Shown here: in pieces, positions 7,701 to 62,968 of the stretch | How the letters are laid out: every line of letters starts with the position of its first letter | Position numbering within the stretch: the first letter of the stretch is position 1 | Source: Candidatus Saccharimonadota bacterium | GTDB taxonomy: Bacteria; Patescibacteriota; Saccharimonadia; Saccharimonadales; Saccharimonadaceae | NCBI GenBank assembly: GCA_017432025.1 | Contig: JAFRJX010000006.1 | Span: 1 to 64,000, forward strand | Length of the DNA stretch: 64,000 nt | Direction: 5' to 3' | Notes under the pieces: model-generated | What the model was told of the DNA's origin: nothing | Database searches by the model: none | Seen by the model: only the letters and a program-made list of their open reading frames with translations | Made by a program: the position numbers and the translations under genes

Positions 7701-7727
7701 TTCTCCTCCTTAAATAATATTTACTTT

Positions 7728-7736
7728 ATTATAGCA
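7728..7736 (-). promoter_or_regulatory. extended -10 promoter of the aquaporin gene
   Basis: On the minus strand the bases read TGCTATAAT. The predicted start of transcription near 7721 leaves a leader of about 20 bases that holds the strong AAGGAGGAG. Confidence 0.65.
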
Positions 7737-7750
7737 TACTATCGGTGTGA

Positions 7751-7756
7751 TATAAT
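7751..7756 (+). promoter_or_regulatory. -10 box of the 85-aa membrane protein gene
   Basis: TATAAT on the plus strand lies 14 bases from the divergent aquaporin -10, so the two promoters occupy the same short region and may interfere with each other. A GGG-containing weak ribosome site lies just before the ATG at 7786. Confidence 0.55.
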
Positions 7757-7785
7757 GAAAAAGTATTTTAATTTAGGGAAAAACT

Positions 7786-8043
7786 ATGGGCATAATGGTT
7801 ACCAAAAACGAAGACAAGAATGACGAATTGACGCGCCGGATTAATGCAGACCTTCGTGAAAAAATGAACAAGACGTCGAAGCAAGATGGCGACAAAAAAG
7901 ACCCGGATTTAGTGGAAGATTCTGACTATGTTCGTGACATGAAAGAAACTCAAAAATATGCTTGGCTTTGGGTGGTTTGCACCATTGTTGGTGTTGTAGC
8001 GATTGTTATTGTAGCCATTTATCTTTTGACGCAGCAGCGATAA
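7786..8043 (+). CDS. small C-terminally anchored membrane protein, unknown
   Basis: Of its 85 residues, roughly the first 55 are charged and hydrophilic (Lys, Asp, Glu), and one transmembrane helix (about 60-81) ends the protein. It resembles tail-anchored proteins and no domain is recognised. The ATG at 7786 has TAGGGA upstream; an in-frame ATG at 7795 is the alternative. It is divergent from the aquaporin gene and followed by a gene with its own promoter. Confidence 0.7.
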   Translation: MGIMVTKNEDKNDELTRRINADLREKMNKTSKQDGDKKDPDLVEDSDYVRDMKETQKYAWLWVVCTIVGVVAIVIVAIYLLTQQR

Positions 8044-43489: not shown

Positions 43490-46400
43490 ATGGTGTTGCG
43501 AGGAAGAAAGGGTACTGGGGTGCGCGGTCTGCTTTTGTTTATGCGCTATTATCCGGAAAAGGTTTTGATTCCGTTACTTTTTCTTGTCACATTTTTCACA
43601 GTCTTTTACTATGGGCAGAATTCACGGATTTACTCGATTAGTGACGATACTCTGCAGGTTTCTGGTGATGCCGAGACGTGTACGTTTACCTCAAATGTAA
43701 CTTCGGCACACACTAAGACGGTCAATCCTGGTTCAACTCAGAGCGGTATTGGCACGACTAAAATTACCACTAAATGCACGAATTCAATTGAACACAAGGT
43801 CTATGCGATTGGCTATTCAAACAATACGGATGGTAATACCGGGCTGATCAATTCATCCGACAATGTGACGATTGCTACTGGGACGGCGACTTCTGGCGAT
43901 GTCTCAAACTGGGCGATGATGATTGCAAAGGATACTTCTTCATATGAGCCGAGTAATTTGACGATTACAAATAGCTTTGGTTCTTATCATGTAGTGCCAA
44001 GCACCTCAACACAAGTATCTGGGTATTCTGGTGCTACGGATGCTACCACTGGCTCGTCGATTACGACGACTTACAGAGCGAAGCTTTCCAGTTCGCAACT
44101 AGCGGGAACATATGTAGGCAAGGTGAAATACACGCTTACGGCGACGATGTTCTACACTGTCACGATTAAGACTGCAACTGGTGTTTCAAAAGTAACTCTT
44201 AATGGAGTAGAATGTACGAGTACTTCTGGATGTCAGGTGACAAATCTCACTGAAGGCGAAACTTATACGCTTGTTGCTACATTGGCAACTGGCTACAACT
44301 TTAGCACTTGGTCTACGCCGGAAAATGGCACGATTGCGGGCGCGACAACTGCTAGTACAACTTTTACCGTTGGTGGTGGTGATGCAACGATTACCCCTTC
44401 GGCAACGCCAAAGACTTACACTATTACCTTAAACAAGAATGGGGCAACGACGGCCGGCTCTAGTTCGACAACTGCAACTTATGGCGCAACGACGCTCGCT
44501 GCGATTACTAGGCCACAAAGGGAATACAACATTTCTGGCTTCACTCTGCCGGCTTCAAATGGCGCAACTGGGGCAGAGGTTTCGAGCACCAACACGGTTA
44601 CTAGCACTTATACGTTTAATGGTTGGTACAAGGAGTCCGGCGCAACTAACAAAATTGCTTCAAATGCGGCTACGCCGGTTCTAGCCGCTAGTACTTCGTA
44701 TACAACTTCTAATGGCACTTGGAGCTATAATGGAGCGCGCACGCTTTATGCTGGTTGGACTGCGCAGATGGTATCACTTCCAACCATTACAAAACAGGGT
44801 TACGACTGTGGTTGGACAGAAACGGCAACTGATGCGACTACGAAAGATTTTCAGACTGGCGATTCGTTAACTCCGACTAGAGACTACACACTTTATGGTG
44901 TTTGTATCCCGATTGATTATACTATTACGATTGATGCTGGGGCAGGTACGACCACCCTTACACTTTCAGGTTGGAGTGGTACTGGCACTGCTACTCTCAC
45001 GAAGACTTTCCATATCGGTGACACGATTGATTTATCAGCCATAACTCCTACTTATAGAACTGGGTATAGTGGTACCAAGATAATTAAAAATGATTCCTAT
45101 GGTTCCTTAAGTGATTCTATCTATACGGTTGGCGCAGGGAATGGATCTATTACGATTAGCGCGTCGGCACTTGATACGCCAGTTTGTACAGTTAGCGGTG
45201 GTAGCGGTAGCGTCGTTTATAACTATGCTGATACTACTTTGACCGCCACGTCAAATGCCGCGAGTTATGATTCGGCCTCTGTGAATATTACGTATGCGTT
45301 CGGTTATGGATCAAGTGCTTCTAATACACTGGGCAACTTCAGTAGTGCGCAGACTAGTAATTCCTATACGGTTGCGAGAAATGCTTTTAAAGGTTCTAGG
45401 TATTATGGTGTTAGAGTTGTGGTGACGGATAAGACGGATAGCACAATTACGGCAACTTGTACCTCTGGTACTGGTACGGGTACTGGTTCGACTGTGGCCG
45501 CAAGGGCAACGGTTGGGCGTGTTAATTCCATTATTCGTTTTGATGCGACTACTAATGGTGGTACTCTGGAAGGTACGACTCCGCTTTATGTTAGCTATCT
45601 TGGGACCGCTACTTATACTTCACGTACTAACTCTACGACGGCATCAATCCCGACCGCTGTACCACCAACTGGTTATACTTTCGATGGTTGGTATACGGAG
45701 TCTAGTGGTGGTAGCAAAGTGCTTAATTCGAGCAACCAGTTAACTGGGACTGCGGTTACTAGTTGGTCGAATGCGGACAGCCAATGGGTTAAAACTAGTG
45801 CGAATATTTCTAATGAGTCAATCAACATTCTCTATGCCCAGTATGTGTCTAAGACTTATACGATTACTCTCAATGGAAATGGCGCGACGACGGCAGGATC
45901 CGGTTCGGCTACGGCTGCCTTTGGTTCAACTTCTTTGTCATCAATCACAAAGCCGTTTAGATCATACACGATTTCTGGCTTTACTTTGCCGGCTTCCAAT
46001 AATGCTTCTGGTGCTTCAGTTGGCAGTACTTCGACTCTCACTAGCTCTTACACCTTCAATGGTTGGTACGAAGAGTCTGCCGCAACGAATCTAGTGGCAT
46101 CAAACGATACGACTCCGGTGCTCCAAGCGAATACTTCTTATACTGATACATCTGGACAGTGGAATTATGATGGTACGACAACACTTTATGCTGGTTGGAC
46201 GGCACAACAAAAGACACTCCCGTCGATTACGAAACCAGGATACGATTGTGGTTGGACGGAAACGGCGACCAATGCTACTTCAATTACTTATCGCTCTGGC
46301 GATCCGTTGACTCCAGGTAGGAATTACACACTTTATGGTGTTTGTACCGCAAATAATTATACGGTGACGGTAGATGCGGGCGCCGGTATTAGTACGCTTG

Positions 46401-49400
46401 CGCTTTCCGGTTGGACTGGAACGGGCACCGGCACGCTTTCGAAGTCCTTCCATATCGGTGAAGTGATTAACCTAGCTTCATTTACTCCAACTTATCTCAC
46501 CGGACATAGCGGTACTACGTATGTAGTGAACGATTCGTATGGTTCAATTAGCGGATCCACATATACAGTGGGTGCAGGGAATGGGCATATTATTATTAAG
46601 GCTAGCACGCTTGCAACGCCGACCTGTACAATGCAAGGCGGTACCACGAAAGTTTATAACCGTTCGGCTACTACTCTTACTGCTACGGATACTTCAAGCT
46701 TATATGAAAGTAATAGCGTAGACATTAGTTATTCATTTGGTTGGGCGACGAGTGATTCTGCGGCGCTTGGTGACTTTAGCTCCCCACAGTCTGGGAACAC
46801 ATTCTCGATTGCGAAGGCATTATTCTATGGAACAAGGTATTATGGTGTAACCGTCAATGTAGTCAGCGTGGATGATAGTTCACTCACGGCAACCTGTACG
46901 TCTGGAACTGGCTCTAGTACGGGTACAACGGTTGCAAACAGGACTACAATGGCATTGGTTAATTCCAGAGTGCAATTAAATGCTGGCGATGGAACTTTGA
47001 GTGGTACGGCTTATTTCTACGTTGCGTATGGTAAGAACAATAAATATAGCTCGAGGACTTCAACTTCGGCATATACGTTACCGACAGTGACACCACCAGA
47101 AGACTATGTGCTTGATGGTTGGTATACATCGGGTGGTGATAAAGTGATGAATGCAGATTTCTCACTGACTGGTGTCGCGGTTTCTGGTTGGTCTAATGCT
47201 TCTCCCAACTGGGTAAAGACCGGTACGAGTAATTCTGCTACTGCTACTGCCAACCAACTCTACGCGCACTATACATTTAATGGCACTTACATCCAGAATT
47301 TACCGAGCGCTTCTTGTACATCTACTCCACTTAAAGTTTATGATAGTCGTGACATGCAATCGTATTATGTAAAACGTCTTGCGGATGGGAACTGCTGGAT
47401 GATGGATAATTTGAATCTTGGCGCAACGGATTTAACGGTTGAACTGAGCAGTACTAATTCCAATTTCGTGTCGCCACTTACAGCCGAAGTATTTAATAGT
47501 TGGCGCGTTACGACTGGTTCAAATACTTTGACCGATGGTGAGTTCTTTAATTATACTGGCAATGATCCGACTTCAGAAGGTAGATATGGTACACTCTATA
47601 ACTACTATGCTGCGACTGCGACTTATTTCTCTGGAAGCACGACGACGCAAAACTCAAAGAATGACATTTGTCCGGCTGGCTGGAGACTCCCGACTGGTGG
47701 TCAATATGGCGAATACGATGAGCTAACGAAGCTTCCAGCTTTTGACACGGTTGCGGAACTTAGGACTCCAGTTATGAGTGGTGGTTTTGGTTTGGCGTTT
47801 GCTGGGTATGGTGGCGTAGGCAACGTAGCATATATCAATCAGCTTGGAACCTATTGGACTTCTACAAGAGTTAATGATACAAATATGTATTATATGTCTG
47901 TGAATTCGTCCATGATTGGTGCTACATATTCGACTTCTCGTGGATATATGCAATCGATTCGTTGTGTCATGAAAAAGACTGCACATCAAGTAACTGTTTC
48001 ATACGATTCGGGCATAGCTAGCGTAACGCTTAATGGTACGAGCGTAGCAAATGGATCAAGTGTCTTGCTAGAAGACGATGCTTATTATTATATTGAGGCT
48101 ACAACTAATTCGGGCTACAACTTTGGTAGCTATTCTGCTACGGTCGGTAGTTTTGTAACCACCACGCTAGGATCGACCTATTATAAGACCGGAACTGCCG
48201 CAAGCACGATTACTGTTACTTCGGCAGCTGCCACTTTTACATGTACAAAACAGTTCCGTTTACAAAATGCTGACGGAACTTATCCAAGTACCTATACTGT
48301 TGATAGCGTTGAAACTCTTACTGTCGGTGATATTTGTGACTACGTGAAGTCTTATACAAACTATCAGACACAATCTGATAACCAGGCACCACTTGGCCCT
48401 ATCGATGTAACCCTTTCGCTTGATCTCCCTAGGAATACTTATACGCTTACTGTTTATAAATATTCGTCAATCTCTACCGTTGGGTATAGCGGGACATATA
48501 GATGGGGACAAGAAATCCAGCTGACGGCAACGCCAAATCTTGCAGAGGGATACAGGTTTTACCAGTGGGCACATTATAATTCGGAAAATGAAGGCACTTT
48601 TTCGTCGACTACTATTACTAATCCGACCTACACGATGCCGATTGGGAATGCTAGTATCGTTGCTTCCGGCAGAAAGAATTATTTCCAGGAGCGTCTATAT
48701 TCGTATTGTGGCTACCCAATGTGGGATTATCGAACTAATACATCATATAAAACTGTAATTATTAATACTTGGTGTTATATGGCAGAAAACTTGGACCTTC
48801 CGGGTGGAACGACGGTTGAATCGACGCATTCACATGTGTCTAGTAGCTATACTTTGCCGGCTTCTTCTACGGGCGCTTCAACTGGTGTTTATAATTCTGG
48901 TACCAGAGACTGTTCATCTGGTGGCCCATGCTATAGTTATTACAACTGGACTGTAGCAACGGCTGGGACAAACCCGACGTTTGGCATGGCAGAAGCAGAT
49001 ATTTGTCCGAGATATTGGCGCTTGTTGCAACAGAATGATCTAGATAGAATTTCGTCTTATCATTATACGAACCAGATACCGTTAACTTCTGCGCCATTCG
49101 AAGGAAATGCGTCCGGATTATACTCTACATCTGGAGGATATAATAATTCGAATACGATTATGTTCTGGGCGGGTGCTAATCATTATGTAGGTCCTGATAA
49201 TGCACGTAGTGGTTATGCCTATAATGCAACGTCTGCTACTTATTTCGGTAATGCGCAGTATATGAAGGATGTTAGGGCTGGCGTGCGTTGCGTGATGGCA
49301 AACACGAATACATTATCTTCGGCTACGACGATGCAAAGTGTAGCACCAGACATGATTCTAAATTCGGCCAATGGTGCGACTGCGACTCTTACGGATAGCC

Positions 49401-49993
49401 GGGACACCTCGGTTTCTTATGGTGTGCTTAAAGCGGCAAATAGTTTGTGGATGACAGATAACCTTAAGGTTCTAGGTGGTGCAACTATTTCAAACACGGC
49501 ATCGAATATAACTTCAAGTACATCCTATACTTTGCCGGCTAGCGTGACCAGCCCAGCCTATTGGACTAATAGTAATACTTCGGCGGTGCTTTACACTGGG
49601 ACTGCATCAACCACTGGTGGATACTACAATCATGTTGCGGCGACGGCCACGATCCAAAACACGACAGCCGCCAATAATGCTTCAGTGATGAATCAACCAA
49701 TGCAGAGTATTTGCCCACGCCCGTGGCGCATACCGACATACCATGAGCTTGCTGATTTGGTCTCTAGTTTTGGCACGCAGATGATCAATTTGCTTGGTCT
49801 TGCCAAGAATGGCTATATTGCTTCAGGCGGTTTATCGATGAGTGGTTATTATGGATTCTGGTGGACAATGACGACTAGTGCAACTGACGCGACGAAGGCT
49901 TATATCTTAACTGAAACTCCGTCGAATACGCTTACATTGCAACTTGTTGATAAGTATTATGGCGCTAATATTCGCTGTATTTATAATAGTTAA
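43490..49993 (+). CDS. giant surface protein (2167 aa) with InlB-like and FISUMP modules
   Basis: The ATG at 43490 follows the extended -10 and gives a basic N-terminus before one export helix (about 25-45). Order: a beta domain of about 170 residues with two Cys, InlB/Listeria-Bacteroides-type repeats (ending in patterns such as LYAGWTA) within two copies of a 480-residue unit, then three FISUMP modules. The first FISUMP copy is canonical (DGNCWMMDNL, ICPAGWRLPT, IRCV); the other two are more diverged. There is no LPxTG and no C-terminal anchor, so attachment is by the N-terminal helix or non-covalent. An adhesive role is inferred. Confidence 0.88.
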   Translation: MVLRGRKGTGVRGLLLFMRYYPEKVLIPLLFLVTFFTVFYYGQNSRIYSISDDTLQVSGDAETCTFTSNVTSAHTKTVNPGSTQSGIGTTKITTKCTNSIEHKVYAIGYSNNTDGNTGLINSSDNVTIATGTATSGDVSNWAMMIAKDTSSYEPSNLTITNSFGSYHVVPSTSTQVSGYSGATDATTGSSITTTYRAKLSSSQLAGTYVGKVKYTLTATMFYTVTIKTATGVSKVTLNGVECTSTSGCQVTNLTEGETYTLVATLATGYNFSTWSTPENGTIAGATTASTTFTVGGGDATITPSATPKTYTITLNKNGATTAGSSSTTATYGATTLAAITRPQREYNISGFTLPASNGATGAEVSSTNTVTSTYTFNGWYKESGATNKIASNAATPVLAASTSYTTSNGTWSYNGARTLYAGWTAQMVSLPTITKQGYDCGWTETATDATTKDFQTGDSLTPTRDYTLYGVCIPIDYTITIDAGAGTTTLTLSGWSGTGTATLTKTFHIGDTIDLSAITPTYRTGYSGTKIIKNDSYGSLSDSIYTVGAGNGSITISASALDTPVCTVSGGSGSVVYNYADTTLTATSNAASYDSASVNITYAFGYGSSASNTLGNFSSAQTSNSYTVARNAFKGSRYYGVRVVVTDKTDSTITATCTSGTGTGTGSTVAARATVGRVNSIIRFDATTNGGTLEGTTPLYVSYLGTATYTSRTNSTTASIPTAVPPTGYTFDGWYTESSGGSKVLNSSNQLTGTAVTSWSNADSQWVKTSANISNESINILYAQYVSKTYTITLNGNGATTAGSGSATAAFGSTSLSSITKPFRSYTISGFTLPASNNASGASVGSTSTLTSSYTFNGWYEESAATNLVASNDTTPVLQANTSYTDTSGQWNYDGTTTLYAGWTAQQKTLPSITKPGYDCGWTETATNATSITYRSGDPLTPGRNYTLYGVCTANNYTVTVDAGAGISTLALSGWTGTGTGTLSKSFHIGEVINLASFTPTYLTGHSGTTYVVNDSYGSISGSTYTVGAGNGHIIIKASTLATPTCTMQGGTTKVYNRSATTLTATDTSSLYESNSVDISYSFGWATSDSAALGDFSSPQSGNTFSIAKALFYGTRYYGVTVNVVSVDDSSLTATCTSGTGSSTGTTVANRTTMALVNSRVQLNAGDGTLSGTAYFYVAYGKNNKYSSRTSTSAYTLPTVTPPEDYVLDGWYTSGGDKVMNADFSLTGVAVSGWSNASPNWVKTGTSNSATATANQLYAHYTFNGTYIQNLPSASCTSTPLKVYDSRDMQSYYVKRLADGNCWMMDNLNLGATDLTVELSSTNSNFVSPLTAEVFNSWRVTTGSNTLTDGEFFNYTGNDPTSEGRYGTLYNYYAATATYFSGSTTTQNSKNDICPAGWRLPTGGQYGEYDELTKLPAFDTVAELRTPVMSGGFGLAFAGYGGVGNVAYINQLGTYWTSTRVNDTNMYYMSVNSSMIGATYSTSRGYMQSIRCVMKKTAHQVTVSYDSGIASVTLNGTSVANGSSVLLEDDAYYYIEATTNSGYNFGSYSATVGSFVTTTLGSTYYKTGTAASTITVTSAAATFTCTKQFRLQNADGTYPSTYTVDSVETLTVGDICDYVKSYTNYQTQSDNQAPLGPIDVTLSLDLPRNTYTLTVYKYSSISTVGYSGTYRWGQEIQLTATPNLAEGYRFYQWAHYNSENEGTFSSTTITNPTYTMPIGNASIVASGRKNYFQERLYSYCGYPMWDYRTNTSYKTVIINTWCYMAENLDLPGGTTVESTHSHVSSSYTLPASSTGASTGVYNSGTRDCSSGGPCYSYYNWTVATAGTNPTFGMAEADICPRYWRLLQQNDLDRISSYHYTNQIPLTSAPFEGNASGLYSTSGGYNNSNTIMFWAGANHYVGPDNARSGYAYNATSATYFGNAQYMKDVRAGVRCVMANTNTLSSATTMQSVAPDMILNSANGATATLTDSRDTSVSYGVLKAANSLWMTDNLKVLGGATISNTASNITSSTSYTLPASVTSPAYWTNSNTSAVLYTGTASTTGGYYNHVAATATIQNTTAANNASVMNQPMQSICPRPWRIPTYHELADLVSSFGTQMINLLGLAKNGYIASGGLSMSGYYGFWWTMTTSATDATKAYILTETPSNTLTLQLVDKYYGANIRCIYNS
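44411..47272 (+). repeat. two tandem copies of a 1440-bp (480-aa) unit
   Basis: Copy 1 runs 44411-45850 and copy 2 45851-47272. Each starts KTYTITLN, contains NGATTAGS, ISGFTLPASN, YDCGWTETAT, FHIGD/E, YTVGAGNG and TATCTSGTG in the same order, and ends LYA-Y. Protein similarity is strong throughout while the DNA has drifted, so the duplication is not recent. Confidence 0.85.
47300..49993 (+). repeat. three FISUMP modules of the 2167-aa protein
   Basis: Approximate limits: 47300-47976, 48690-49300 and 49340-49993. Each has a WM--NL block, an ICP--WR block and a closing RC. The first matches the family pattern best; the second and third have lost parts of the DGNCWM block. Confidence 0.75.
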
Positions 49994-50023
49994 GTATTAC
50001 CATTATTTTGCACGTAGTCAATA

Positions 50024-50051
50024 TTGAACATATGCTTAACTCATATATAAT
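50024..50051 (+). promoter_or_regulatory. promoter of the 3837-aa gene
   Basis: TTGAAC (50024-50029), a 16-base spacer and TATAAT (50046-50051). The leader of about 15 bases is almost all ribosome site (GGAGGAG at 50059-50065). Confidence 0.7.
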
Positions 50052-50072
50052 AGAATACGGAGGAGTGTAGTT

Positions 50073-53000
50073 TTGTTGGAAGTAAAAAGCTTTAAACAGA
50101 TGCGAATGGTTCGCATTGGTGGGCAAGTGTCTGCCGGCGCGCTTTTCCTTTTGTTTGCTTTATCGGTTGCTCCATTTAGTATTGGTGGTGATAGTGTTGA
50201 AGCTGAAACTGATTCGACTGTGCCAAGTACGCTGACTTTTGTGGCTGCGAATGCTAATGCGACAGTTGAGATTAACCCTTCCGAAACGGGTACATTCGGC
50301 ACGACTTCAGGGAATGATAACATTAGATTCACGATTGCAACGACTAATAGTAGCGGCTATACTTTAACTGCAAAATCAACCAAAACTACGCTTGATCGTA
50401 CTGGTTCGGGGCAGCTGGCTACGCTGGCCTCTGCGGTGACGCAATCTTCGTTTAGCAGTGCGTCGAATACGACACTTAACGGACGTTGGGGTTACAAGCC
50501 AAATTATTATAATTCTTCTTCGAATACTAGATACCGTCCAGCGCCGTCATCTTCTGGCGTGACTCTTGATAAGACTACGGCTGCTAATACATCAGCTAAA
50601 TCATATACCATTGCACTGGGCGCGAGAATCGACTATAGTGTAGCGGCTGGCTCTTATGTCAATGATACCTTCCAACTTCAATATGTTGCTAACCCGGTGC
50701 CCTATACGATTGCTTTTGATGCGAATGCGGACGATGATATTGTAACCAACATGCCATCAAACTTGACTGGCACTTCTTCGTCACCAGATACAATTACTTT
50801 GCCGTCGAAGACGCCACAGCGCACGAATTATACTTTTGCGGGTTGGTGTACAGCACAACCGACTGAAGTGGCCGGTGGGCAGAGCTGTTCTGGTACAACA
50901 TATTCGGTGAGTTCGCAATATGGTATGGACTATACGGCTGATAACTCAAACAATGTTTTGTATGCAATCTGGACTTCAAATCGTAGTTGCAACAGAGCTG
51001 CTACCACGATTGGCACTGGAGTAACCGCTACTGATGCAGTTTGTATGCAGGATATTAATGATACCGTAATTGCATCTATGAATACCGGCGTACAACATTC
51101 TTTGGTTGACGAGCGCGATGATAAGTCATACTTTATTGCCAAGCAGGCTGATGGAAAAGTCTGGATGACGCAGAACCTGAATTATAATTTAAGTACCTCA
51201 ATCACGCTTACTCATCATAATACCGATCTTGGCTATACAACCGATGACGAGACAAAGACTTGGACGCCAAGTGCGACCACTTTGACCGATATCTCGAACT
51301 GGACTAATAACACATCGGCTCCAATGTCATATGACGCTAGCACGTGGTATTATACATCTTCCGGTTCGACTTCAAACGATACGGTTTCTGCAGTTTGTTC
51401 TGACTCTTCGACTTGTAAGCATTTTAATGCTGGTACTTACTATAACTGGCTAGCGGCAATTGCGGAAAATGAGACCAGTACTGACAATATGGCAAGAATG
51501 CCGGATTCGGTTTGTCCAGCGGGATGGAGGTTACAGGAGAGCTATTCTAATGATTATTACTCTGAGCTTAATAGTTTGTTTGTTGCGCTCGGTTATGTGA
51601 CTAGATATGTTTCTAGCGGAAATGCGGCTTTGGCTTCGGGTGCCCTAAATAGCTTGCGCGGGGCTCCATTGTATATCGTAAGGGCATCAAGCGTAAATAG
51701 CGGTGCGATAACTAATAATGGCGCGACCGCTTATGCTTGGACTAACACTGCAATGGATAATGAAAAATCTAGAGCGCCGGCGATTAATAGCCAGACATTC
51801 TATCCATTGAATTATGTGAATAGGAGCTATGGTCTTTCGGTAAGATGTATAGCAAGGATGAGTCCACATACGACCACGGTCCGTTTCCATGGTAATGGCT
51901 CGACCGGAACCGACCTTGTAACTAGGACGGTTGATAACGGGTTTGCCGTGAGACTAGATAATGTTGAATTTGTGAGATTAAACTATAAGCTTACAGGCTG
52001 GAATACGAGCGCTGATGGATCTGGCACAGCTAAGGCATTTACGGAAACCTATCTTACCGGTGCTGGTGTATCTTCGGATATTGAATATGATCTATACGCT
52101 CAATGGACGCCATCTTACAATATTACTTATAATGGTAATGGAGCAAGCAGTGCTTTAACTATGCCGGTAGGACATAATGTAATAGATGGTGAAGAGTTTG
52201 CTCTTTACGCCCCAAATTACGTTAGAACTGGCTATGGCTTTGCGGGTTGGTCCACGACGCAGATTGATCCGGATGCATCAAATGCGGCTACTTTAATGGC
52301 AAATGCAAAAATCTTTGGGCCGAATCAGACGCTCACGGCAAATTATGCAACGCTTGGCGCGAATGTACCGGCATCAGTGACTTTGTACGCAGTATGGGTG
52401 AAATCTTCTGGTAATATGCAAGATTGGAAGGGATGTACGTCCCTCACTGCCGCGACACGTTCTGATGATACGATTACGCCCGGTAGCGTGATTGCACTGA
52501 CTGATACCAGAGATGGTGACACTTATGCAATTGCGAGACTAGCTGACGGCAACTGTTGGATGATGGAGAATTTGCGTTTGGATGACACTAATTCATCAGA
52601 TTCAAGCAAGGCACAAGGCTTTGGCGATGGCTTTATTGGCTTAGCTCATACCGAAGACTTTTTCGTAAATGATACTACGGCGAATACTTTATATAGTACT
52701 TCGAATATTACTGGTAATAATATTGCAAACCGCATTCCACGTTATAACAATAACAATACAAAGACTACGGGTCAGGCTGAAGATGGGACGACCCTTGTTT
52801 CGGACCCGGGGAACAGTAGTCTCTACAACCAGTGGTATGGTTATGGCAATTTGTACACTTGGGCGGCAGCGATTGCTAGCACCGAAGATATTGAGGGCAC
52901 TACTGGTTCTGGGACTTTCACGTCGATTTGTCCGAGCGGATGGATACTCCCAGCGAATGGCAGTACGACGGTTGATTATACTTATAGTAAATTGCTAAAT

Positions 53001-56000: not shown

Positions 56001-59000
56001 AAATTGGCTGATGGTAACTGTTGGATGATTGAAAACTTACGTCTTAATTCGGCGAATTCGACTGATAATTCTAAGGCACAGGGTTTTGGTGGCGTCTTTA
56101 CCGGTTTGCCAAATTCCGAATTTGCCTCATTCACGACATCTATGACGGCAAACTCGTTATATACGACCGATCCAGCATCAACATCTCTGAATGTGATTGC
56201 TGGTGGTGACAATCTCCAGTATAGAATTCCAAGGTTTAGCGATTCTGTCTCTAGCGCTGTTTCGACAATGACTGCTGCCAACCAAAGTATCTATTCATAT
56301 GGTAATTATTATAATTTCGCTGCAGCTAAGGCAAGTACTACTGAGATGGCGACTACTGCGGCATCTGAATGGTCTGGCACATCGATTTGTCCAAAGGGAT
56401 GGCGACTTCCGACCGGCGGTGCGAGTGGTTCAAATAAAGAGTTTGAGGCGTTGAATACGGCTGCCAATTCCGGTAGCACGGCATCTTCGGCTGGGATTAG
56501 AAGCTACCCGAATAACTTCGTTTATTCTGGTTCAGTATGGAATTCGTCCTATAGTGGAGTTGGCTCATATGGTCAATATTTCTCGACCAGTTCGAACGCC
56601 GGTACAGGGTTCTTCGAATATCAGATTGGGGCGAGTTCAGTAAATGTTGGTCGTAGTGTCTATAGGAGTATTGGTGATTCAGTACGCTGTATTGCTAATA
56701 CTGGCGTGACTATCACACTTAATTCGAATGATGGTTCTGATAAAGTTGCTCGCATATATGTTGCAAGTGGAACGGCAGTTACACTTTCGAGCGAGATATT
56801 CGAAAACGAAAACCATACAATTACTTCATGGAATACAACGACTGGCGGTACTGGTACTAGCTATACAACTACAATCACGCCATCTTCTAATGTAACTCTT
56901 TATGCTCAGTGGACGGCCGCATATACTATTACTTATAACGGCAATAACGCTACGGGTTCGACTAATATGACTTTGTCTAGACATACGGGAGTAAAAAATG
57001 GCGATTCAATCATGCTGTATGCTAATAATTACATCAGAGATGGTTATGGTTTTCTTGGCTGGTCTACGACGCAAGTCGATCCGGATGCATCGAATGCACA
57101 TACTTTAATTACAAATTCTGTGGTTTGGGGACCAAACGAAACGATTACGGCCAATTCGACAAATCTTGGCGCAAGCGCTCCGACGAGTGTAACATTGTAT
57201 GCTGTTTGGGTAAAAGCTAGTGGCACATTCCAGAACTGGAACGGATGCGCTTCGATGACGACAACAACTTACAACAGTAGCACTGGAACGTTTACTACGG
57301 GTAGTTATATTGCGCTCACTGACACTCGCGGCACTACGGCAAATACATATACGATTGTTAGATTGCCAGGTGGATACTGCTGGATGATTGAAGATGCAAG
57401 ATTCAATGTTGGAAGCGACACGATAACGGCTGCCAATACTAACCATCCAACGTCTACATTCCTTGCTAATAAGACGAACACTCCGTCTACATGTACTGGT
57501 ACAAACCAGGCTTGTGTTGAATCAATTATCTATTCTAGTGGTCTAGGACTTTCTCAGGGTACTTACTATGGCTGGTGGACGGCAACGGCAGGAAATGGTG
57601 CATATAATTCGAATAATTCGTATGATAGTGATATTTGCCCGACGGGCTGGCATATGCCGATTAGCTATGGTACTGGTAGCGAATATGGCACTTTGCTTGC
57701 GAATATTGGTGCCGCTGCGAACACTAATTACACAACTACGTCATCCCCAACTGCCACTGTACTATCGGCTAGATTGCGTAGCTTCCCGCTTAACTTCTTG
57801 TACGCTGGTGATGTTCAAGGCACTAATACTTACAGTTATAGAACGGAAGGGTATTATAACTCTGCTAATGGTTGGAATAGCGGCTCTACTTATTATAGGT
57901 ATTACTTTGGACTTAGCGATAGTTTTGTGAGAGTAAGCTATGGTTGGTCTAAATATATGGGCTTTAGACTAAGGTGCGTATATGCTCCTGAGATTACATA
58001 TGATGGTAATGGTGCTACTTCTGGAGATATGTCTACTAAATCGTCAAGGCTTTTCAATGTTTCATCTGTTACCCTGCGTGCTCCAACCTATGAACGGACT
58101 GGATATGGCTTCTTAGGCTGGAGTCCGGTAGCTAACGGTACGGGTACGATTTACGGACCAAATGAAACCGTTTCGACTTCGAGCCTTTTGACGTATGCCG
58201 ATGCAGTTGGCAACGTGAAAATGTATGCAATTTGGGTCCAATCTACTGGTAATCTCCAAAACTGGAGCGGGTGTGATAGCCTTACAAAGCCAACAGTGAA
58301 CGGTGCGGTATCCAATAAGGGAAATGTTACGGCGCTTACCGATACTCGCGACAATAGGACTTATACAGTAGCAAGGCTTGCGGACGGCAACTGTTATATT
58401 GCTGAGAACTTAAGACTTGGTTTAACGGAGCTCACAACGGACTTAATCGGGAGCAATACAAATCTTTCTCTTCCTGTTACGGCGTCAGTTTTCAATGGTT
58501 GGAGATCCGCTACGGCAACCTCTACGACATCGACCGGGCTTGTCTATACTGGCCTTTCGAGCTACGGGAAGAATGAGATTCTTTACAATTATTGTGCTAT
58601 TTCGGCTGGTTTGATGTGTACCGATTCTTCTACTACCGATATTACCTATGATCTTTGTCCGGCTGGTTGGAGATTATCTACTGGTGGATATAATACTGGC
58701 GATATTACTGGCCTCTATAATCTTGGTTATAATACTAGCGCTCTGGCCAGAAAATCCGTAGTAACCGGTGGTATGGGTTTTGCGATGAATACTAATCTCG
58801 CAAATACCGACGATAGCGCATTCTACTTTACTTCTACTAATGCCACAAATAATATTTATGCCCCGCAAATTACAGTGTCATCCTTTGGGCCTTCTTATCA
58901 GGCGGGTAGAAGTAATTATGGTCCACTTAAATGTGTACTAAATAAAGCCCGTACAGATCTTACGGTTTACTATGGCACTGGCGTATCGTCAATTACAGTC

Positions 59001-61586
59001 AATGGTAACGTCGTGCCTAGCAGTGGCAAAGTGCGACTCGATCCTGGTACATCAGTAACAGTTGTAATGTATTTGAAGACGGATTATGCCTTTAGTTCAT
59101 GGAGTACCTCTGGCGGCACACTCGGCGTCTCGGCACAAACCACAACATTCACGCTCGGGACCGGTACTACTGCATCCATTACGGGATATGCAACATTTAC
59201 TGGTACCTATATCCAAAACATGAGTGATACTCTTTGTACGACGACAGCAAGAAAGGTTTATGATAATCGTGATATGCAGACATATTACGTGAAGAAGCTT
59301 TCTGATGGTAATTGTTGGATGGTGACTAACTTGAACCTTGGTGGAGTAACTTTCTATAACAACTTGACCAGTTCTAACACGAACCTATCCACTACAGTTA
59401 CGTATTCGACTTTCAATGGTTGGAAGAAAACATCTAGTGCTTCGACTTATACCGATGGCGAATTCATGGTGCTCTCTGGTTCAGACTCAACGACCGGTAC
59501 TCCATATGGTACACTTTATAATTATTACGCGGCGACAGCCGGTACGATTTCGGGCGATTCGAACTCAACCAATGCATCTTACGATATCTGTCCAGCGGGT
59601 TGGAGATTGCCGACTGGTGGCACTGGTAGCTCTGAATATTATAATCTTTATAACTATTACAATTCGTATTCCTTAATGCGCGCATCGTATAACAACGGTG
59701 GTGCGGCATTTAACCAGCCGGGTTGGTTCGGTGGTGGTTCTGCTACTTCTAATGTGAATCTAGGATTAACAGGTAGCTTCTGGTCATCGACAACTTATAA
59801 TTATAACTATCGTTATGGTATGTATGTAGCAACATCTGGACCAACGGTCCAGAGGGATGCGCCGATGATCCGAAATGGTGGCCATTCAATTAGATGTATT
59901 AAGAAGCCAAATGGCGTTACGCTGACTGTTAACTATTCGAGAGGCGTGTCTTCGGTTTACGTGAACGGCAGTTATGTGGCAAACGGTTCATCTGCTAATG
60001 TTGCGGTTGGAACATCGGTAACGATTACGGCATATATGAGTGGTGGCTATTCGTTCTCGAGCTGGGTAGCGGGACAAGGTACAGTTTCGAGCTCTTCTTC
60101 ATATAGTACTACCTACACTGCGCCTTCGTCGGCTGTAACAACTACTTTGGCGGCCAATGCAACATTTACTGGTATTAGAATCCAGAATTTGACACCTTCT
60201 TACTGTACATCAACGCCACTGACAGTTTATGATAGCCGCGATGACCAGGCATATACTGTAACGAGATTGAAGGATGGTCGTTGTTGGATGACGGATGATT
60301 TGAAGCTTGGTAATACTACTGTGCTAGCTGATTTGACTAGCTCAAATACTAACCTTTCATCAACGATTACGGCATCGACATTCAATGGTTGGAGAAACCA
60401 GGCTGGTACTGTTTCAACCGGTGGTTATACTACGCCATCTTCAGGTACTGATCCGGTTTCCGGTAGGGCATATGGTGTAACTTATAACTATTACACGGCT
60501 TCAGCCGGTACGATTTCCGGTGATTCCAACAGCAACAATGCTTCTTATGATATCTGTCCGGCGGGTTGGAGACTTCCGACTGGCGTAACTACGACTGGTG
60601 ATTTTGCAAAGTTGTTTGCAGTTTACAATACATATTCATTAGTGAAATCGCCAGTAGCGGATGGTGGTGCAGCGATGAATGATTATAGCCCGACTTCTGG
60701 AGTGTCTGAGTATTGGTCTTCGACCAATAACAACACGACTACTATGAGGACAACATATGTCACTACTTCGTACTTGTATTCGAATTTCAATTCACAACGT
60801 CAGTATAAGAATACAATTCGTTGTCTATTAAAGAGCGATAGCTATAATATCTCTAACCTTACATACTTACAAGATTGGAACTCGCTATCGAGCGCCAATA
60901 AGACCAATGTTCTTAACAGTATGTATGATAGCGTGCTTTACCATTTGACCGACAACCGTGATGGTCAATCTTACAATGTGGCAAAGCTAAAAGATGGTCA
61001 TATCTGGATTACGCAGAATTTGAATCTTGGCAATTCGAATATTTCTGTGAACCTCACGAGCTCTAACACTAATATTTCCTCGACTATTACTTATACGACC
61101 TTTAATAACTGGAGAAAATCTTCAATTACTCCTACTCTCACTGCTGGTGAACTTGTGTATGTTAATGGAACTGACGCCACTTCTGGCACTCCGTATGGCG
61201 TAATGTATAATTATTGTGCGATTTCTGGTGGTACTATTTGCTCAAGCAGTAGCACTGCAAATGCATCGTATGATCTTTGCCCGGCAGGTTGGAGGCTTCC
61301 GACTAGTGGCTTTGGTCCTTCGTATGAAGTGTTTGCGATTGGCACGAACTATTCCGGAAGTGCGATGTTTGCTCCGATTACTTCTGGCGGTGCGGCCTTT
61401 GTGCTAGGGGGCAGAATGACCGGTGGTAACTTGATCAATTATTCTGGCACTTATGGTGATTATTGGAGCTCGATCAATGACGGTAGTACTACATATATGA
61501 AGACGATTAACTTTGACTCCTCTTCGGTGGCCGATGCTCAAATTAGCCGTGGCGCAGCTATTAATGCTAGATGTCTCGGCAAGTAG
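50073..61586 (+). CDS. giant surface protein (3837 aa) with ten FISUMP modules
   Basis: Translation starts at TTG 50073 (or TTG 50076), seven bases after GGAGGAG. A basic start and hydrophobic stretch (about 15-38, ending near VEAE) form a signal peptide. A beta domain (about 45-215) is followed by alternating InlB-like repeats (ITYNGNGA...LYAVW) and ten FISUMP modules, ending NARCLGK. The FISUMP pattern is D-RD--Y-V-KL-DG-CWM--NL, a YN--AA block, ICPAGWRLPT, then a YWSS-type stretch and RC. Three or four cysteines per module suggest disulfides and an extracellular site. No sorting signal or C-terminal helix is present. The 11.5-kb frame is intact. A multivalent binding role is inferred. Confidence 0.9.
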   Translation: MLEVKSFKQMRMVRIGGQVSAGALFLLFALSVAPFSIGGDSVEAETDSTVPSTLTFVAANANATVEINPSETGTFGTTSGNDNIRFTIATTNSSGYTLTAKSTKTTLDRTGSGQLATLASAVTQSSFSSASNTTLNGRWGYKPNYYNSSSNTRYRPAPSSSGVTLDKTTAANTSAKSYTIALGARIDYSVAAGSYVNDTFQLQYVANPVPYTIAFDANADDDIVTNMPSNLTGTSSSPDTITLPSKTPQRTNYTFAGWCTAQPTEVAGGQSCSGTTYSVSSQYGMDYTADNSNNVLYAIWTSNRSCNRAATTIGTGVTATDAVCMQDINDTVIASMNTGVQHSLVDERDDKSYFIAKQADGKVWMTQNLNYNLSTSITLTHHNTDLGYTTDDETKTWTPSATTLTDISNWTNNTSAPMSYDASTWYYTSSGSTSNDTVSAVCSDSSTCKHFNAGTYYNWLAAIAENETSTDNMARMPDSVCPAGWRLQESYSNDYYSELNSLFVALGYVTRYVSSGNAALASGALNSLRGAPLYIVRASSVNSGAITNNGATAYAWTNTAMDNEKSRAPAINSQTFYPLNYVNRSYGLSVRCIARMSPHTTTVRFHGNGSTGTDLVTRTVDNGFAVRLDNVEFVRLNYKLTGWNTSADGSGTAKAFTETYLTGAGVSSDIEYDLYAQWTPSYNITYNGNGASSALTMPVGHNVIDGEEFALYAPNYVRTGYGFAGWSTTQIDPDASNAATLMANAKIFGPNQTLTANYATLGANVPASVTLYAVWVKSSGNMQDWKGCTSLTAATRSDDTITPGSVIALTDTRDGDTYAIARLADGNCWMMENLRLDDTNSSDSSKAQGFGDGFIGLAHTEDFFVNDTTANTLYSTSNITGNNIANRIPRYNNNNTKTTGQAEDGTTLVSDPGNSSLYNQWYGYGNLYTWAAAIASTEDIEGTTGSGTFTSICPSGWILPANGSTTVDYTYSKLLNSLTGTTATSVSSSTAATIFKRFRTYPYNFVASGYQNVSAMSSRETDVYLWASFYAGTNYAYGGAYRISSSNIYYTSLQRSAGVPMRCVADKDYRIHYNGNGADAGHDMRVTSVVSSGNAVTLSAPNFVRSGYGFVGWSTTQINPDASNAATLIANATIYGPNETVTFSSVSSDITLYAVWMKSAGNLQGWTGCSSLAQGSFTALKDTRDNQVYAVVKLADGNCWMAENLRLNDDHSIDYAKMQGVGGVYVGLGNSATNFAEGTLNTSLYTANPRTTELAYISGDYQMYRFPKYNNQNTALSIEHMSDVAQNVYFYGNYYNWHGAMANTSIMNVASVSDYAGSSLCPSGWRLPTAGIAASGKELNVIMTTLNVPSNDSSNLRKFPYNFIYSGVYQSSNANSRGTRGDYLSSSAYDESRVYSLVFYDTSSQHYAAVTTNQKVWGSSIRCIKDDRMVVTLDANDGSGRYERVYGDTGFATTIPISPAFQKDDSVVTSWNTQPDGSGTSYTTSYTGGTSITLYAQWTSSYRIIYDGNNATSSSNMNAYGHSGIASGAEVVLYTNNVLRDNYGFLGWSYTQINPDASNAATLIANAKILGPNEAVIANATNFGVNAPATVTLYAVWIKSSGNMQNWSGCDSLTQTTYSNGVITPGGVIGLTDTRDNKVYAVARLSDGSCWMMETLRLSGNNANITAATTNKPTDAFPGSSGYWCWTNSADCVNRINSSWSLTPASTQYYNFYTATAGNGTYEMTTGTAAGDICPKGWHLSNALVNSTSDYFKLAVSLGGSYATMTGALGSSVSRRLRAYPNNFGYPGYGQSSSSSSSNANVTNNRIAGYYAGANAYSQNQYAMFYITDTGVYATQYSKYLGSSVKCVKNPKTVYYDGNGADNPSAMSVSHLATAGSSLNLYASNYRRAGYGFLGWSFTQIDPDASDAASQIANAVIYGPNQTIELPSVVSGDLTLYAVWAKSAGNMQDWSGCASLSSGSVTALKDSRDNQVYAVAKLADGNCWMIENLRLNSANSTDNSKAQGFGGVFTGLPNSEFASFTTSMTANSLYTTDPASTSLNVIAGGDNLQYRIPRFSDSVSSAVSTMTAANQSIYSYGNYYNFAAAKASTTEMATTAASEWSGTSICPKGWRLPTGGASGSNKEFEALNTAANSGSTASSAGIRSYPNNFVYSGSVWNSSYSGVGSYGQYFSTSSNAGTGFFEYQIGASSVNVGRSVYRSIGDSVRCIANTGVTITLNSNDGSDKVARIYVASGTAVTLSSEIFENENHTITSWNTTTGGTGTSYTTTITPSSNVTLYAQWTAAYTITYNGNNATGSTNMTLSRHTGVKNGDSIMLYANNYIRDGYGFLGWSTTQVDPDASNAHTLITNSVVWGPNETITANSTNLGASAPTSVTLYAVWVKASGTFQNWNGCASMTTTTYNSSTGTFTTGSYIALTDTRGTTANTYTIVRLPGGYCWMIEDARFNVGSDTITAANTNHPTSTFLANKTNTPSTCTGTNQACVESIIYSSGLGLSQGTYYGWWTATAGNGAYNSNNSYDSDICPTGWHMPISYGTGSEYGTLLANIGAAANTNYTTTSSPTATVLSARLRSFPLNFLYAGDVQGTNTYSYRTEGYYNSANGWNSGSTYYRYYFGLSDSFVRVSYGWSKYMGFRLRCVYAPEITYDGNGATSGDMSTKSSRLFNVSSVTLRAPTYERTGYGFLGWSPVANGTGTIYGPNETVSTSSLLTYADAVGNVKMYAIWVQSTGNLQNWSGCDSLTKPTVNGAVSNKGNVTALTDTRDNRTYTVARLADGNCYIAENLRLGLTELTTDLIGSNTNLSLPVTASVFNGWRSATATSTTSTGLVYTGLSSYGKNEILYNYCAISAGLMCTDSSTTDITYDLCPAGWRLSTGGYNTGDITGLYNLGYNTSALARKSVVTGGMGFAMNTNLANTDDSAFYFTSTNATNNIYAPQITVSSFGPSYQAGRSNYGPLKCVLNKARTDLTVYYGTGVSSITVNGNVVPSSGKVRLDPGTSVTVVMYLKTDYAFSSWSTSGGTLGVSAQTTTFTLGTGTTASITGYATFTGTYIQNMSDTLCTTTARKVYDNRDMQTYYVKKLSDGNCWMVTNLNLGGVTFYNNLTSSNTNLSTTVTYSTFNGWKKTSSASTYTDGEFMVLSGSDSTTGTPYGTLYNYYAATAGTISGDSNSTNASYDICPAGWRLPTGGTGSSEYYNLYNYYNSYSLMRASYNNGGAAFNQPGWFGGGSATSNVNLGLTGSFWSSTTYNYNYRYGMYVATSGPTVQRDAPMIRNGGHSIRCIKKPNGVTLTVNYSRGVSSVYVNGSYVANGSSANVAVGTSVTITAYMSGGYSFSSWVAGQGTVSSSSSYSTTYTAPSSAVTTTLAANATFTGIRIQNLTPSYCTSTPLTVYDSRDDQAYTVTRLKDGRCWMTDDLKLGNTTVLADLTSSNTNLSSTITASTFNGWRNQAGTVSTGGYTTPSSGTDPVSGRAYGVTYNYYTASAGTISGDSNSNNASYDICPAGWRLPTGVTTTGDFAKLFAVYNTYSLVKSPVADGGAAMNDYSPTSGVSEYWSSTNNNTTTMRTTYVTTSYLYSNFNSQRQYKNTIRCLLKSDSYNISNLTYLQDWNSLSSANKTNVLNSMYDSVLYHLTDNRDGQSYNVAKLKDGHIWITQNLNLGNSNISVNLTSSNTNISSTITYTTFNNWRKSSITPTLTAGELVYVNGTDATSGTPYGVMYNYCAISGGTICSSSSTANASYDLCPAGWRLPTSGFGPSYEVFAIGTNYSGSAMFAPITSGGAAFVLGGRMTGGNLINYSGTYGDYWSSINDGSTTYMKTINFDSSSVADAQISRGAAINARCLGK
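51040..61586 (+). repeat. ten FISUMP modules of the 3837-aa protein
   Basis: Approximate limits: 51040-51860, 52418-53275, 53550-54345, 54880-55620, 55910-56700, 57230-57985, 58250-58940, 59210-59910, 60180-60830 and 60860-61586. Modules 2-6 are separated by InlB-like repeats with the recurring QI-PDASNA stretch; modules 7-10 are spaced by a shorter linker or directly adjoin. The framework blocks are conserved and the stretch before the final RC varies strongly between copies. Confidence 0.8.
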
Positions 61587-61589
61587 TGG

Positions 61590-61617
61590 TTGACATTCCG
61601 CTTATGATTGCTATAAT
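61590..61617 (+). promoter_or_regulatory. promoter of the 174-aa secreted protein gene
   Basis: TTGACA (61590-61595), a 16-base spacer and an extended TGCTATAAT (-10 at 61612-61617). It starts three bases after the giant gene ends. Confidence 0.85.
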
Positions 61618-61643
61618 AGAATTAGAATTTTTGGAGGTTTAAA

Positions 61644-62168
61644 GTGAATAAAAAGGTTTTGTGTTGTTCCGTAGCGGCATTAAGCGCTTTTCTTGGGGCA
61701 GCAAGTGTTTATGCGACCGATCCGTCAGCAGTAGTCGATAATCTTAACGTGACAGTTGATGAGATTTGTACGTTTACGAGAACTGCTGGTAGTGCCACAA
61801 TTTCTAAGGCGATGACTGCCAACAAGGGTGCTACTGCGATGAATTCTACCGCGAATACTTTTGTGGCGGTTTGTAATGCTGGTAATGGCTATCAGGTGGC
61901 TGCAACTTGGACTGCACTTACTGGTGGTTCTGGTTCTGCCACATTCGCTTATCATACCTCCCCGTCTAAGGGATATAACCGTTGGGCAGCTTATGTCAAC
62001 GGAAGTACCACAGCTTTAGCTGCCACTAGCGCAAAATTAATGGATACTAGTGCTCCGGATACCTCTGAAGGTACAACTGCGACGGTGATTTATAAGGTTT
62101 CTACAGCATCCGATGTTCCATCTGGTACTTATACTGGTACTGCAACCTATACTTTGACCCAAAAATAG
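61644..62168 (+). CDS. small secreted beta-rich protein (174 aa)
   Basis: GTG start with GGAGG six bases upstream. A clear signal peptide (cleavage near VYA, about residue 24) precedes about 150 residues of beta-rich sequence with two cysteines (DEICTF and VAVCNAG). It ends SGTYTGTATYTL. The same closing pattern and layout occur in the N-terminal domains of the two giant proteins just upstream, so this looks like a stand-alone version of that domain. It could be a pilin-like or WxL-like surface subunit; the family is not recognised. Confidence 0.85.
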   Translation: MNKKVLCCSVAALSAFLGAASVYATDPSAVVDNLNVTVDEICTFTRTAGSATISKAMTANKGATAMNSTANTFVAVCNAGNGYQVAATWTALTGGSGSATFAYHTSPSKGYNRWAAYVNGSTTALAATSAKLMDTSAPDTSEGTTATVIYKVSTASDVPSGTYTGTATYTLTQK

Positions 62169-62184
62169 ACTTATTTAGTATTTG

Positions 62185-62193
62185 TGTTATAAT
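62185..62193 (+). promoter_or_regulatory. extended -10 promoter of the tRNA gene
   Basis: TGTTATAAT, with predicted transcription start about three bases before the mature tRNA. Confidence 0.65.
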
Positions 62194-62202
62194 TATGAGC
62201 AC

Positions 62203-62278
62203 GGGGTAGTAGCTCATCTGGTAGAGCGCAGCATTCGCATTGCTGAGGTGGACGGTTCGAGTCCGTTCTACTCCACCA
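62203..62278 (+). tRNA. tRNA-Ala (anticodon CGC)
   Basis: A full cloverleaf with encoded CCA. The acceptor stem GGGGTAG/CTACTCC contains the G3-U70 pair that marks alanine tRNAs. The D arm is GCTC-GAGC, the anticodon stem CAGCA/TGCTG with loop TTCGCAT (anticodon CGC, reading GCG), and the T arm GACGG-TTCGAGT-CCGTT. A T run directly after CCA acts as terminator. Confidence 0.96.
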
Positions 62279-62296
62279 TTTTTTTTGGCCCTTAGA

Positions 62297-62325
62297 TTGA
62301 CATTTTAGCGTAAGTATGATATAAT
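62297..62325 (+). promoter_or_regulatory. consensus promoter of the sortase-like gene
   Basis: TTGACA (62297-62302), a 17-base spacer and TATAAT (62320-62325): a perfect match. The leader of about 46 bases has a run of nine Ts and AAAAAGGGGG before the ATG. Confidence 0.85.
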
Positions 62326-62377
62326 AATAAGAGATAGGGACTTTTTTTTTATTGTTCTTTAAAAAGGGGGAATAGAT

Positions 62378-62968
62378 ATGGAGAGAAAACGGCGAGGAAA
62401 AAGGCTATTTCAAGAGCTTTTTATTTCGTTCGGACTTAGCATTGCAATGGTTTTAGCAATTTTTCTTCTCGGTGAGCAGGCGCTGTATCTGTTGACGGAT
62501 TCGGCGTTTGGCACGCATGGGAGATTATCAATTCCAACACTTGGGATTGATGTTGCAGTTTATAATGCGCACGGTGAGAATTCGCAGGCAATTGTAGACA
62601 AAACCGATTCGGCGGCTTTTATCCGTTGGAAGGAGCAAAATGTGATTGTGGATCATCGTTCACAGAGCTTTTATCTACTTCCGGAGGCAGTTCCTGGCGT
62701 GACTAAAGCGTGCCTTGTTACACCGTTTTATACGGATTATTACGTTTGTACGTATTCGGGCACTGGAAAAATCATTTATGGCGAAAACCATATGTGTAAA
62801 TTCGTGAATGATCAGGGTGAGGCAGTAAACCTCGCAAACCAAGGTGGCATCTGTATGTACACTTGTCAAAGCGAAATGGTCAATAGCGAAGTTTCGGTTT
62901 ATGTAACTTATTGGCGATTATCGAGCATTGACCCACTCCATTTTCTAGAAAAAGTTCTATCACTATAA
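62378..62968 (+). CDS. sortase-like membrane protein (196 aa)
   Basis: An N-terminal helix (about 15-37) anchors an extracellular domain that follows the sortase plan: it opens with RLSIPTLGIDVAVYNA, has a candidate catalytic histidine in VIVDHRSQ, a cysteine in CMYTCQSE and an arginine in VTYWRLSS. The usual TLxTC is changed to MYTC, and extra cysteines are present (five in the domain). It may be a divergent sortase or an inactive relative. It is the last gene of the surface locus, and the giant proteins or the 174-residue protein are possible substrates. Confidence 0.75.
   Translation: MERKRRGKRLFQELFISFGLSIAMVLAIFLLGEQALYLLTDSAFGTHGRLSIPTLGIDVAVYNAHGENSQAIVDKTDSAAFIRWKEQNVIVDHRSQSFYLLPEAVPGVTKACLVTPFYTDYYVCTYSGTGKIIYGENHMCKFVNDQGEAVNLANQGGICMYTCQSEMVNSEVSVYVTYWRLSSIDPLHFLEKVLSL

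Follow-up and report, generated by a model that had tools for sequence, protein, structure and literature searches.

The two adjoining giant genes described here, which lie in a Saccharibacteria genome, are best explained, in our judgement and with modest confidence, as encoding surface adhesins that present lectin-fold heads on a stalk and are held by an N-terminal beta-sandwich domain. The products are very likely adhesins, multivalent and lectin-like, that probably serve to contact host cells or gut glycans, and host contact is their likely role. For the holding mechanism we offer a hypothesis toward which several indirect lines of support converge, and we infer the surface location, the ligand binding, the partner cell and the strand exchange that it involves.

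The window (the whole 64,000-nucleotide stretch of DNA that was analysed) comes from a genome of 858,689 bases that is 97.1% complete, which bears out the initial annotation's description of a reduced genome. Both giants are encoded on the + strand, and a ribosomal-protein and rpoA cluster lies upstream of them. The source organism is probably a tiny gut bacterium that lives on other bacteria; cultivated Patescibacteria are obligate episymbionts (PMC12206443). All named-genome relatives recovered in a search with giant 2 are labelled 'Candidatus Saccharibacteria', and those with a stated source are mostly from ruminant gut. In the literature searched (most subscription journals lay outside the search), no paper was found that treats FISUMP and Saccharibacteria together, and the combination of InlB and Saccharibacteria gave only unrelated work.

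Domain architecture of the giant proteins

Both giant frames are uninterrupted (Table 1). Giant 1, with 2188 codons, starts with an ATG and ends at its C-terminus with its last FISUMP module, and giant 2, with 3837 codons, starts with a TTG preceded by a GGAGGAG ribosome-binding site and has a signal peptide with a possible cleavage point after ...SVEA. Each protein begins with a signal or anchor and is devoid of cytoplasmic domains. The Pfam family Fib_succ_major (PF09603) matches giant 1 at 70.8 bits and giant 2 at 133.2 bits (cut-off 33.9), and NCBIfam TIGR02145 matches them at 96.5 and 338.1 (cut-off 41.65). Similarly, the repeats match Flg_new at 29.9 bits in giant 1 and 126.3 bits in giant 2 (cut-off 27), and Flg_new_2, a divergent InlB B-repeat, at 38.9 in giant 1 (cut-off 23.6). 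Both giants thus belong to the FISUMP and InlB B-repeat families, far above the cut-offs in the HMM search that the initial annotation had proposed. A local FISUMP profile, built from modules of the source genome itself and used to place the modules, gives 3 + 10 = 13, the same count that had been made by eye along with the many InlB-like repeats, which are confirmed in both giants by Flg_new.

Table 1. Features of the giant-gene locus, in window positions
Feature	Position	Strand	Description
Giant protein 1 (P0001)	43490..49993, frame open from 43427	+	N-terminal membrane anchor, class I beta domain, InlB-type repeats, 3 FISUMP
Class I N-terminal beta domain, giant 1	43631..44158	+	Two invariant Cys; AlphaFold pLDDT 86; fold like donor-strand subunits
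FISUMP module 1, giant 1	47300..47971	+	Local profile E 4e-83; also found in Pfam genome search
FISUMP module 2, giant 1, divergent	48701..49297	+	Local profile E 4e-12
FISUMP module 3, giant 1	49355..49984	+	Local profile E 3e-21
Promoter-like site, giant 2	50024..50051	+	TTGAAC-16-TATAAT, 10/12
Giant protein 2 (P0002)	50073..61586	+	Signal peptide, class II beta domain, InlB-type repeats, 10 FISUMP
Class II N-terminal beta domain, giant 2	50211..50702	+	Remote relative of class I
FISUMP module 1, giant 2	51066..51854	+	Local profile
FISUMP module 2, giant 2	52461..53267	+	Local profile
FISUMP module 3, giant 2	53574..54347	+	Local profile
FISUMP module 4, giant 2	54927..55619	+	Local profile
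FISUMP module 5, giant 2	55926..56696	+	Local profile
FISUMP module 6, giant 2	57279..57983	+	Local profile
FISUMP module 7, giant 2	58299..58940	+	Local profile
InlB-like repeat and FISUMP module 8, giant 2	58938..59912	+	Modelled unit, pLDDT 94.9
FISUMP module 9, giant 2	60189..60830	+	Local profile
FISUMP module 10, giant 2	60909..61580	+	Local profile
Promoter-like site, small protein	61590..61617	+	Perfect TTGACA-16-TATAAT, 12/12
Small secreted protein (P0003)	61644..62168	+	One free class I domain; signal peptide by eye
tRNA-Ala gene	62203-62278		Between P0003 and P0004
P0004	62378..62968	+	Single-TM extracytoplasmic protein; His and TC motifs in sortase order

The heads match the same two profiles (PF09603 and TIGR02145), above cut-off, as the FISUMP surface proteins of Fibrobacter and Bacteroidota. 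Unlike those proteins, the FISUMP proteins of this Saccharibacteria genus carry up to ten modules per array on InlB-type stalks, have a beta-sandwich N-terminal domain and also occur in a pilin-fused form. Likewise, the stalk repeats resemble those of Internalin B in their Flg_new and Flg_new_2 matches and in the alignment of a model with the InlB B-repeat structure 2y5p, whereas the Pfam matches of the giants include no leucine-rich internalin domain.

An AlphaFold model was built from 87 sequences for one unit of giant 2, comprising an InlB-like repeat and FISUMP module 8, along the lines of the single-module prediction suggested in the initial annotation. The model has a mean pLDDT of 94.9 and consists of an InlB-like stalk repeat followed by a head with a C-type-lectin fold. 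Specifically, the stalk (residues 1-89) resembles CnaB-like domains of adhesins and pilins (Z up to 8.2) and also the InlB B-repeat (Z 5.2). The head (residues 96-324) aligns with the C-terminal domain of Legionella Lcl (8q4e; Z 6.7, rmsd 3.3, 107 residues), with C-type lectins including those of snakes (Z about 6) and with formylglycine-generating enzyme (Z 5.2, 151 residues). Foldseek gave no match to the head model under E 0.001, so that the lectin fold appears only with the second aligner, and single-domain Z-scores of 5 to 8 are middling and may reflect a common arrangement. The Lcl_C family, which we take to be the present name of DUF1566, matches giant 1 by sequence at E 6e-7, just short of the Pfam cut-off. 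This match and the HHsearch relation of FISUMP to DUF1566 (PMC4159848) agree with the lectin-fold reading of the head. The FISUMP head is therefore predicted, from the model, to adopt a C-type-lectin fold over its whole domain, with Lcl (PF07603) as the nearest solved relative. Lcl binds host sulphated glycosaminoglycans (PMC11162425) and is built as one trimeric head on a collagen stalk, whereas the giants carry tandem heads on one chain.

The N-terminal domain and its candidate partners

The initial annotation held that the small secreted protein downstream of the giants shares their N-terminal domain type. This is so for giant 1: its N-terminal domain and the 174-residue P0003 align over their full length and form one family, class I, with two invariant cysteines. 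For giant 2 the relationship is remote, since class II and class I are linked by a profile-profile probability of 84-87% with the larger sequence set and gave no match when few sequences were compared.

The class I model (pLDDT 86, residues 1-13 disordered) resembles donor-strand subunits, best the TasA-like TLP-1a (Z 8.1), CsuA/B (7.7) and CanA (7.6), and also CfaE, FimA and TasA (6.8), within a range of Z 6.4-8.1. The N-terminus of the family alternates hydrophobic residues (AVVDTLTVTV). By sequence, neither the class I profile nor the profile of the WxLIP-like proteins described below matches a solved structure below E 0.19.

Small class I genes occur in three places in the source genome: P0003, a gene directly downstream of a 3661-codon giant on contig 1, and five tandem genes on contig 3. 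The five tandem secreted proteins (L137:2262-5504, G000:C3) are adjoined by a thioredoxin-like protein (a weak match), a single-TM protein and a WxLIP-like protein, and the region looks like a surface-structure operon. WxLIP-like proteins of 318 and 296 residues (L137:618-1571 and L087:665-1555), each with a C-terminal TM, lie beside the contig 3 cluster and within the contig 1 neighbourhood, respectively. The 296- and 318-residue proteins are 37% identical and match WxLIP_PGBD at E 9e-4 and 0.09, both short of the cut-off. On contig 1 the giant, the small protein and the WxLIP-like gene lie within about 17 kb, on contig 3 the five small subunits are accompanied by such a gene, and the window locus has none. 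Proteins of this kind are present in 90 of 121 family genomes and 50 of 61 genera. Elsewhere in the family, a hand count of small class I genes outside the source genome, with those cut by a contig end left out, placed 7 of 10 within 2 kb of a WxLIP-like gene, which has a probability of about 1e-10 at an assumed 2% chance per gene.

Membership of the class I domain in the WxL family itself was considered and ruled out. The WxL profile has no match (E up to 1) in 27 class I members or in the five small subunits, and the dual Trp-x-Leu motif fails as well, as the class I family conserves one tryptophan only. For WxL clusters, AlphaFold models have the WxL sandwich completed by a strand from WxLIP (PMC10599100). 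Donor-strand complementation works on the same principle, and on that ground we propose a WxL-like holding platform. The WxL clusters of Lactobacillales and Bacillales (PMC10599100) resemble the present arrangement in pairing a small free domain with a large protein that carries the domain and binding modules, in having a two-domain Ig-like protein with a C-terminal TM (here a putative one), and in their proposed strand complementation. They differ in that here the WxL profile does not match, the domain is N-terminal in the large protein and has an invariant cysteine pair, the phylum is another one, and the giants are not always inside the cluster.

At the cell surface, the N-terminal domain and the P0003-type subunits would probably be held through strand complementation with membrane-anchored WxLIP-like Ig proteins; alternatively, they might polymerise by donor-strand exchange. 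Giant 2 carries the class II domain, only remotely related to class I, and may instead be cleaved and released. A possible though clearly less probable account of the holding step alone, compatible with the adhesin role, is that the class I and II domains form an extracellular donor-strand fibre in which P0003-type proteins make the shaft and the giants its tips or bases. The structural matches listed above are mostly donor-strand polymers, the disordered first 13 residues and alternating hydrophobic N-terminus would suit such subunits, and both the five tandem subunit genes and the perfect promoter-like site ahead of P0003 fit a fibre. Yet Z-scores of 6 to 8 are middling, and WxL-type strand complementation accounts for the same features without a polymer. 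Compared with the known fibres (TasA-like, Csu, FimA and CanA), the holding-domain fold and disordered hydrophobic N-terminus are alike, but here no chaperone-usher was found, the domain is fused to giant adhesins, and the polymer is a putative one. We entertain only tentatively the broader idea of an undescribed monoderm platform in which small subunits, giants and WxLIP-like proteins are joined by donor-strand exchange, with heads also on pili. If true, the platform and the pilus heads together would form a two-range host-recognition apparatus.

P0004, which follows the small protein, is probably a separate unit, because the tRNA-Ala gene and separate 12/12 promoter-like sites, one of them its own, set it apart from the giants. 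Despite the order of its motifs, the earlier label of this gene as sortase-like found no support: P0004 is not among the PF04203 matches (E up to 1), which include five other genes of the genome, and pairwise sortase alignments reach z of at most 2.1. It has no relative in 59 related genomes and an ortholog in the sister genome described below. Sortase anchoring of the giants is rejected, given that they have no C-terminal LPxTG signal and that P0004 is unrecognised as a sortase. A genuine sortase gene, one of the five, lies elsewhere in the window at 37995-38696 (PF04203, E 5.5e-18), and another of the five, a weaker match, lies just outside it (C4:66402).

FISUMP heads across the genome and on a pilin

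The giant locus is not the single special locus that had been supposed. Instead, the local profile finds 62 FISUMP modules in 14 open frames spread over the genome, one of which (on contig 6) runs off a contig end; together these frames occupy 77.4 kb, or 9.0% of the 859-kb genome. Since the local profile was trained on the same sequences, the independent count is the 55 matches given by Pfam alone (E < 0.001), none with an internal stop. The window taken alone understates the case because the repertoire is genome-wide. Between FISUMP genes also lies a 1247-codon gene for a secreted-looking protein (L088:10775-14518) with no significant Pfam match.

The initial annotation had asked for the presence of the locus across genomes, and FISUMP proves to be present in 96 of the 99 sampled genomes of the genus, in 65 of 199 family genomes and in 24 of the 61 sampled genera of the family. 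In a phylum-wide draw it occurs in 16 of 287 genomes, being rare outside the family, where it is mostly found as single classical domains, many of them scoring higher. This distribution makes the arrays a hallmark of the genus and some relatives. The initial annotation had taken tandem arrays of this size to be new in this kind of organism; the array is a genus signature, and single FISUMP domains occur elsewhere in the phylum.

One FISUMP head is C-terminal on a protein that starts with the class III pilin signal GDTLIEVTLAIGIFSL (L093, G000:C3). The class III signal (GDTLIEV) is followed by a hydrophobic helix, and a gene for the prepilin peptidase PilD adjoins (by eye); from its sequence, the gene is predicted to encode a type IV minor pilin. 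The pilin part is found in most of the 60 genus genomes searched, and the matches include the FISUMP head in four (the source genome, G050, G020 and G015). Among the genus genomes, the head of another pilin consists of InlB repeats, and many pilins lack an extra head altogether. In L116, a relative of the FISUMP pilin, the N_methyl match is at E 8e-4, just short of the cut-off. For normal host binding, TM7x needs its type IV pili and also PilX2, a minor pilin with a C-terminal beta-propeller (PMC12206443). Both Saccharibacteria thus have a minor pilin with an added C-terminal head, although here the head is FISUMP or an InlB repeat rather than a beta-propeller. By this analogy, the FISUMP head on a pilin provides the best indirect evidence for a contact role.

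As we picture it, each giant would run from an N-terminal signal or anchor through the beta-sandwich holding domain and an InlB/CnaB-like stalk to as many as ten lectin-fold heads. The ligands of the heads would most likely be glycans or proteins exposed on a partner bacterium or on the gut surface, with firm attachment arising from the sum of many weak contacts. A repertoire of some 62 heads distributed over 14 proteins, including the one on the type IV minor pilin, could give the cell a range of specificities. The attachment or host-recognition role first proposed for the locus is partly supported, by its surface-type anatomy, lectin-fold heads, InlB-like stalks, genus-wide conservation under purifying selection and the pilin-borne head.

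The heads may instead serve as adhesins of the gut niche, binding mucin, plant fibre or free polysaccharide and not a host bacterium, which we consider unlikely. FISUMP is named from Fibrobacter, a rumen cellulose degrader, and its surface proteins are reportedly suspected in cellulose adhesion (PMC4619616); the glycosaminoglycan binding of Lcl, the nearest solved fold (PMC11162425), and the mostly ruminant-gut origin of those giant-2 relatives that have a stated source point the same way. Set against this are the obligate episymbiosis of cultivated Patescibacteria (PMC12206443) and the placement of a FISUMP head on a minor pilin, the type of organelle that binds hosts in TM7x. For uncultured gut Saccharibacteria, which have had few host-recognition candidates so far, adhesins for host contact would supply a clearly delimited set of candidates, shared across the genus and with identifiable head, stalk and holding domain, that is testable for what these parasites stick to. 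Comparing the head repertoires with the bacteria found alongside could allow partners to be predicted, and single heads can be expressed and screened.

Variation and constraint against a sister genome

The sister genome G580 (RGIG4410, from roe deer omasum), with core DNA 94% identical, has the giants and P0004 in the same order as the window. Where P0003 sits in the source genome, G580 has a 397-residue IS3-like transposase (L100:14600-16500; family by eye), and the lack of P0003 at this locus indicates that the giants can do without it.

Giant 2 is 75% identical to its G580 counterpart, among the lowest of the proteins shared in the block (others mostly 85-100%), at a dN/dS of 0.09; its evolution is fast but constrained. 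The individual modules range from 64% to 92% identity at similar, near-saturated synonymous divergence, with modules 7 and 8 of giant 2 as a variable and a conserved example. Among orthologs, substitutions amount to 0.39 in FISUMP profile columns 169-216, the C-terminal third of the head, versus 0.22 elsewhere (Fisher p 1e-11). It is this region that forms the ligand face in other variable proteins of the lectin fold. In giant 1 of G580, about 411 residues of repeats are missing, in frame, and for two contig 4 FISUMP genes (506 and 2469 codons) the compared G580 stretch contains no reciprocal match.

These differences bear on a reading that we find quite improbable, namely that the giants form a variable coat protecting the cell surface from phage, protists or immune recognition, with binding secondary. 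The fast divergence of giant 2, the in-frame loss in the sister's giant 1, the gain or loss of whole FISUMP genes and the phage-type region in the genome would all suit such a coat. However, module cores are conserved at that low dN/dS, and a pure coat would have no need of ten intact lectin folds. Least credible, and already disfavoured, is selfish or neutral repeat expansion with no cell function: species of the genus do differ in FISUMP copy number, which ranges from 0 to dozens, but the genome's FISUMP matches have no stops, dN/dS is about 0.1 and the modules are kept in 96 of 99 genus genomes. Surface adhesins remain the preferred reading, and a function that takes up 9% of a reduced genome and is kept under purifying selection is presumably central.

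Two further sources of variation were considered. The phage-type region (L096, G000:C6:78001-94000) has terminase, portal, minor head and collagen-like tail fibre genes and a diversity-generating retroelement (DGR), with the reverse transcriptase (RT) at 6824-7852, Avd at 6071-6502, the VR near 5844-5949 and the TR near 6542-6647. The DGR targets a neighbouring phage-type structural gene, whose end contains the VR; in the best 70-base stretch TR and VR differ at 5 sites, and at 4 of these the TR has adenine. Diversification of FISUMP by a DGR is rejected, as none of the FISUMP loci searched contains a match to this TR, the only one found. An origin of giant 2 as an anciently exchanged allele is made less likely by ordinary genes of the block, which have pS of 0.5-0.6 versus 0.70 for giant 2.

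Low pS against G580 is seen in giant 1 (0.20) and a 2495-codon FISUMP gene (G000:C4:84119-91603; 0.22), whereas many neighbours are at 0.5-0.6; recent gene exchange or codon bias could account for these low values. The least conserved gene of the block is a 193-residue frame (G000:C4:99196-99774), which is 56% identical to its G580 counterpart.
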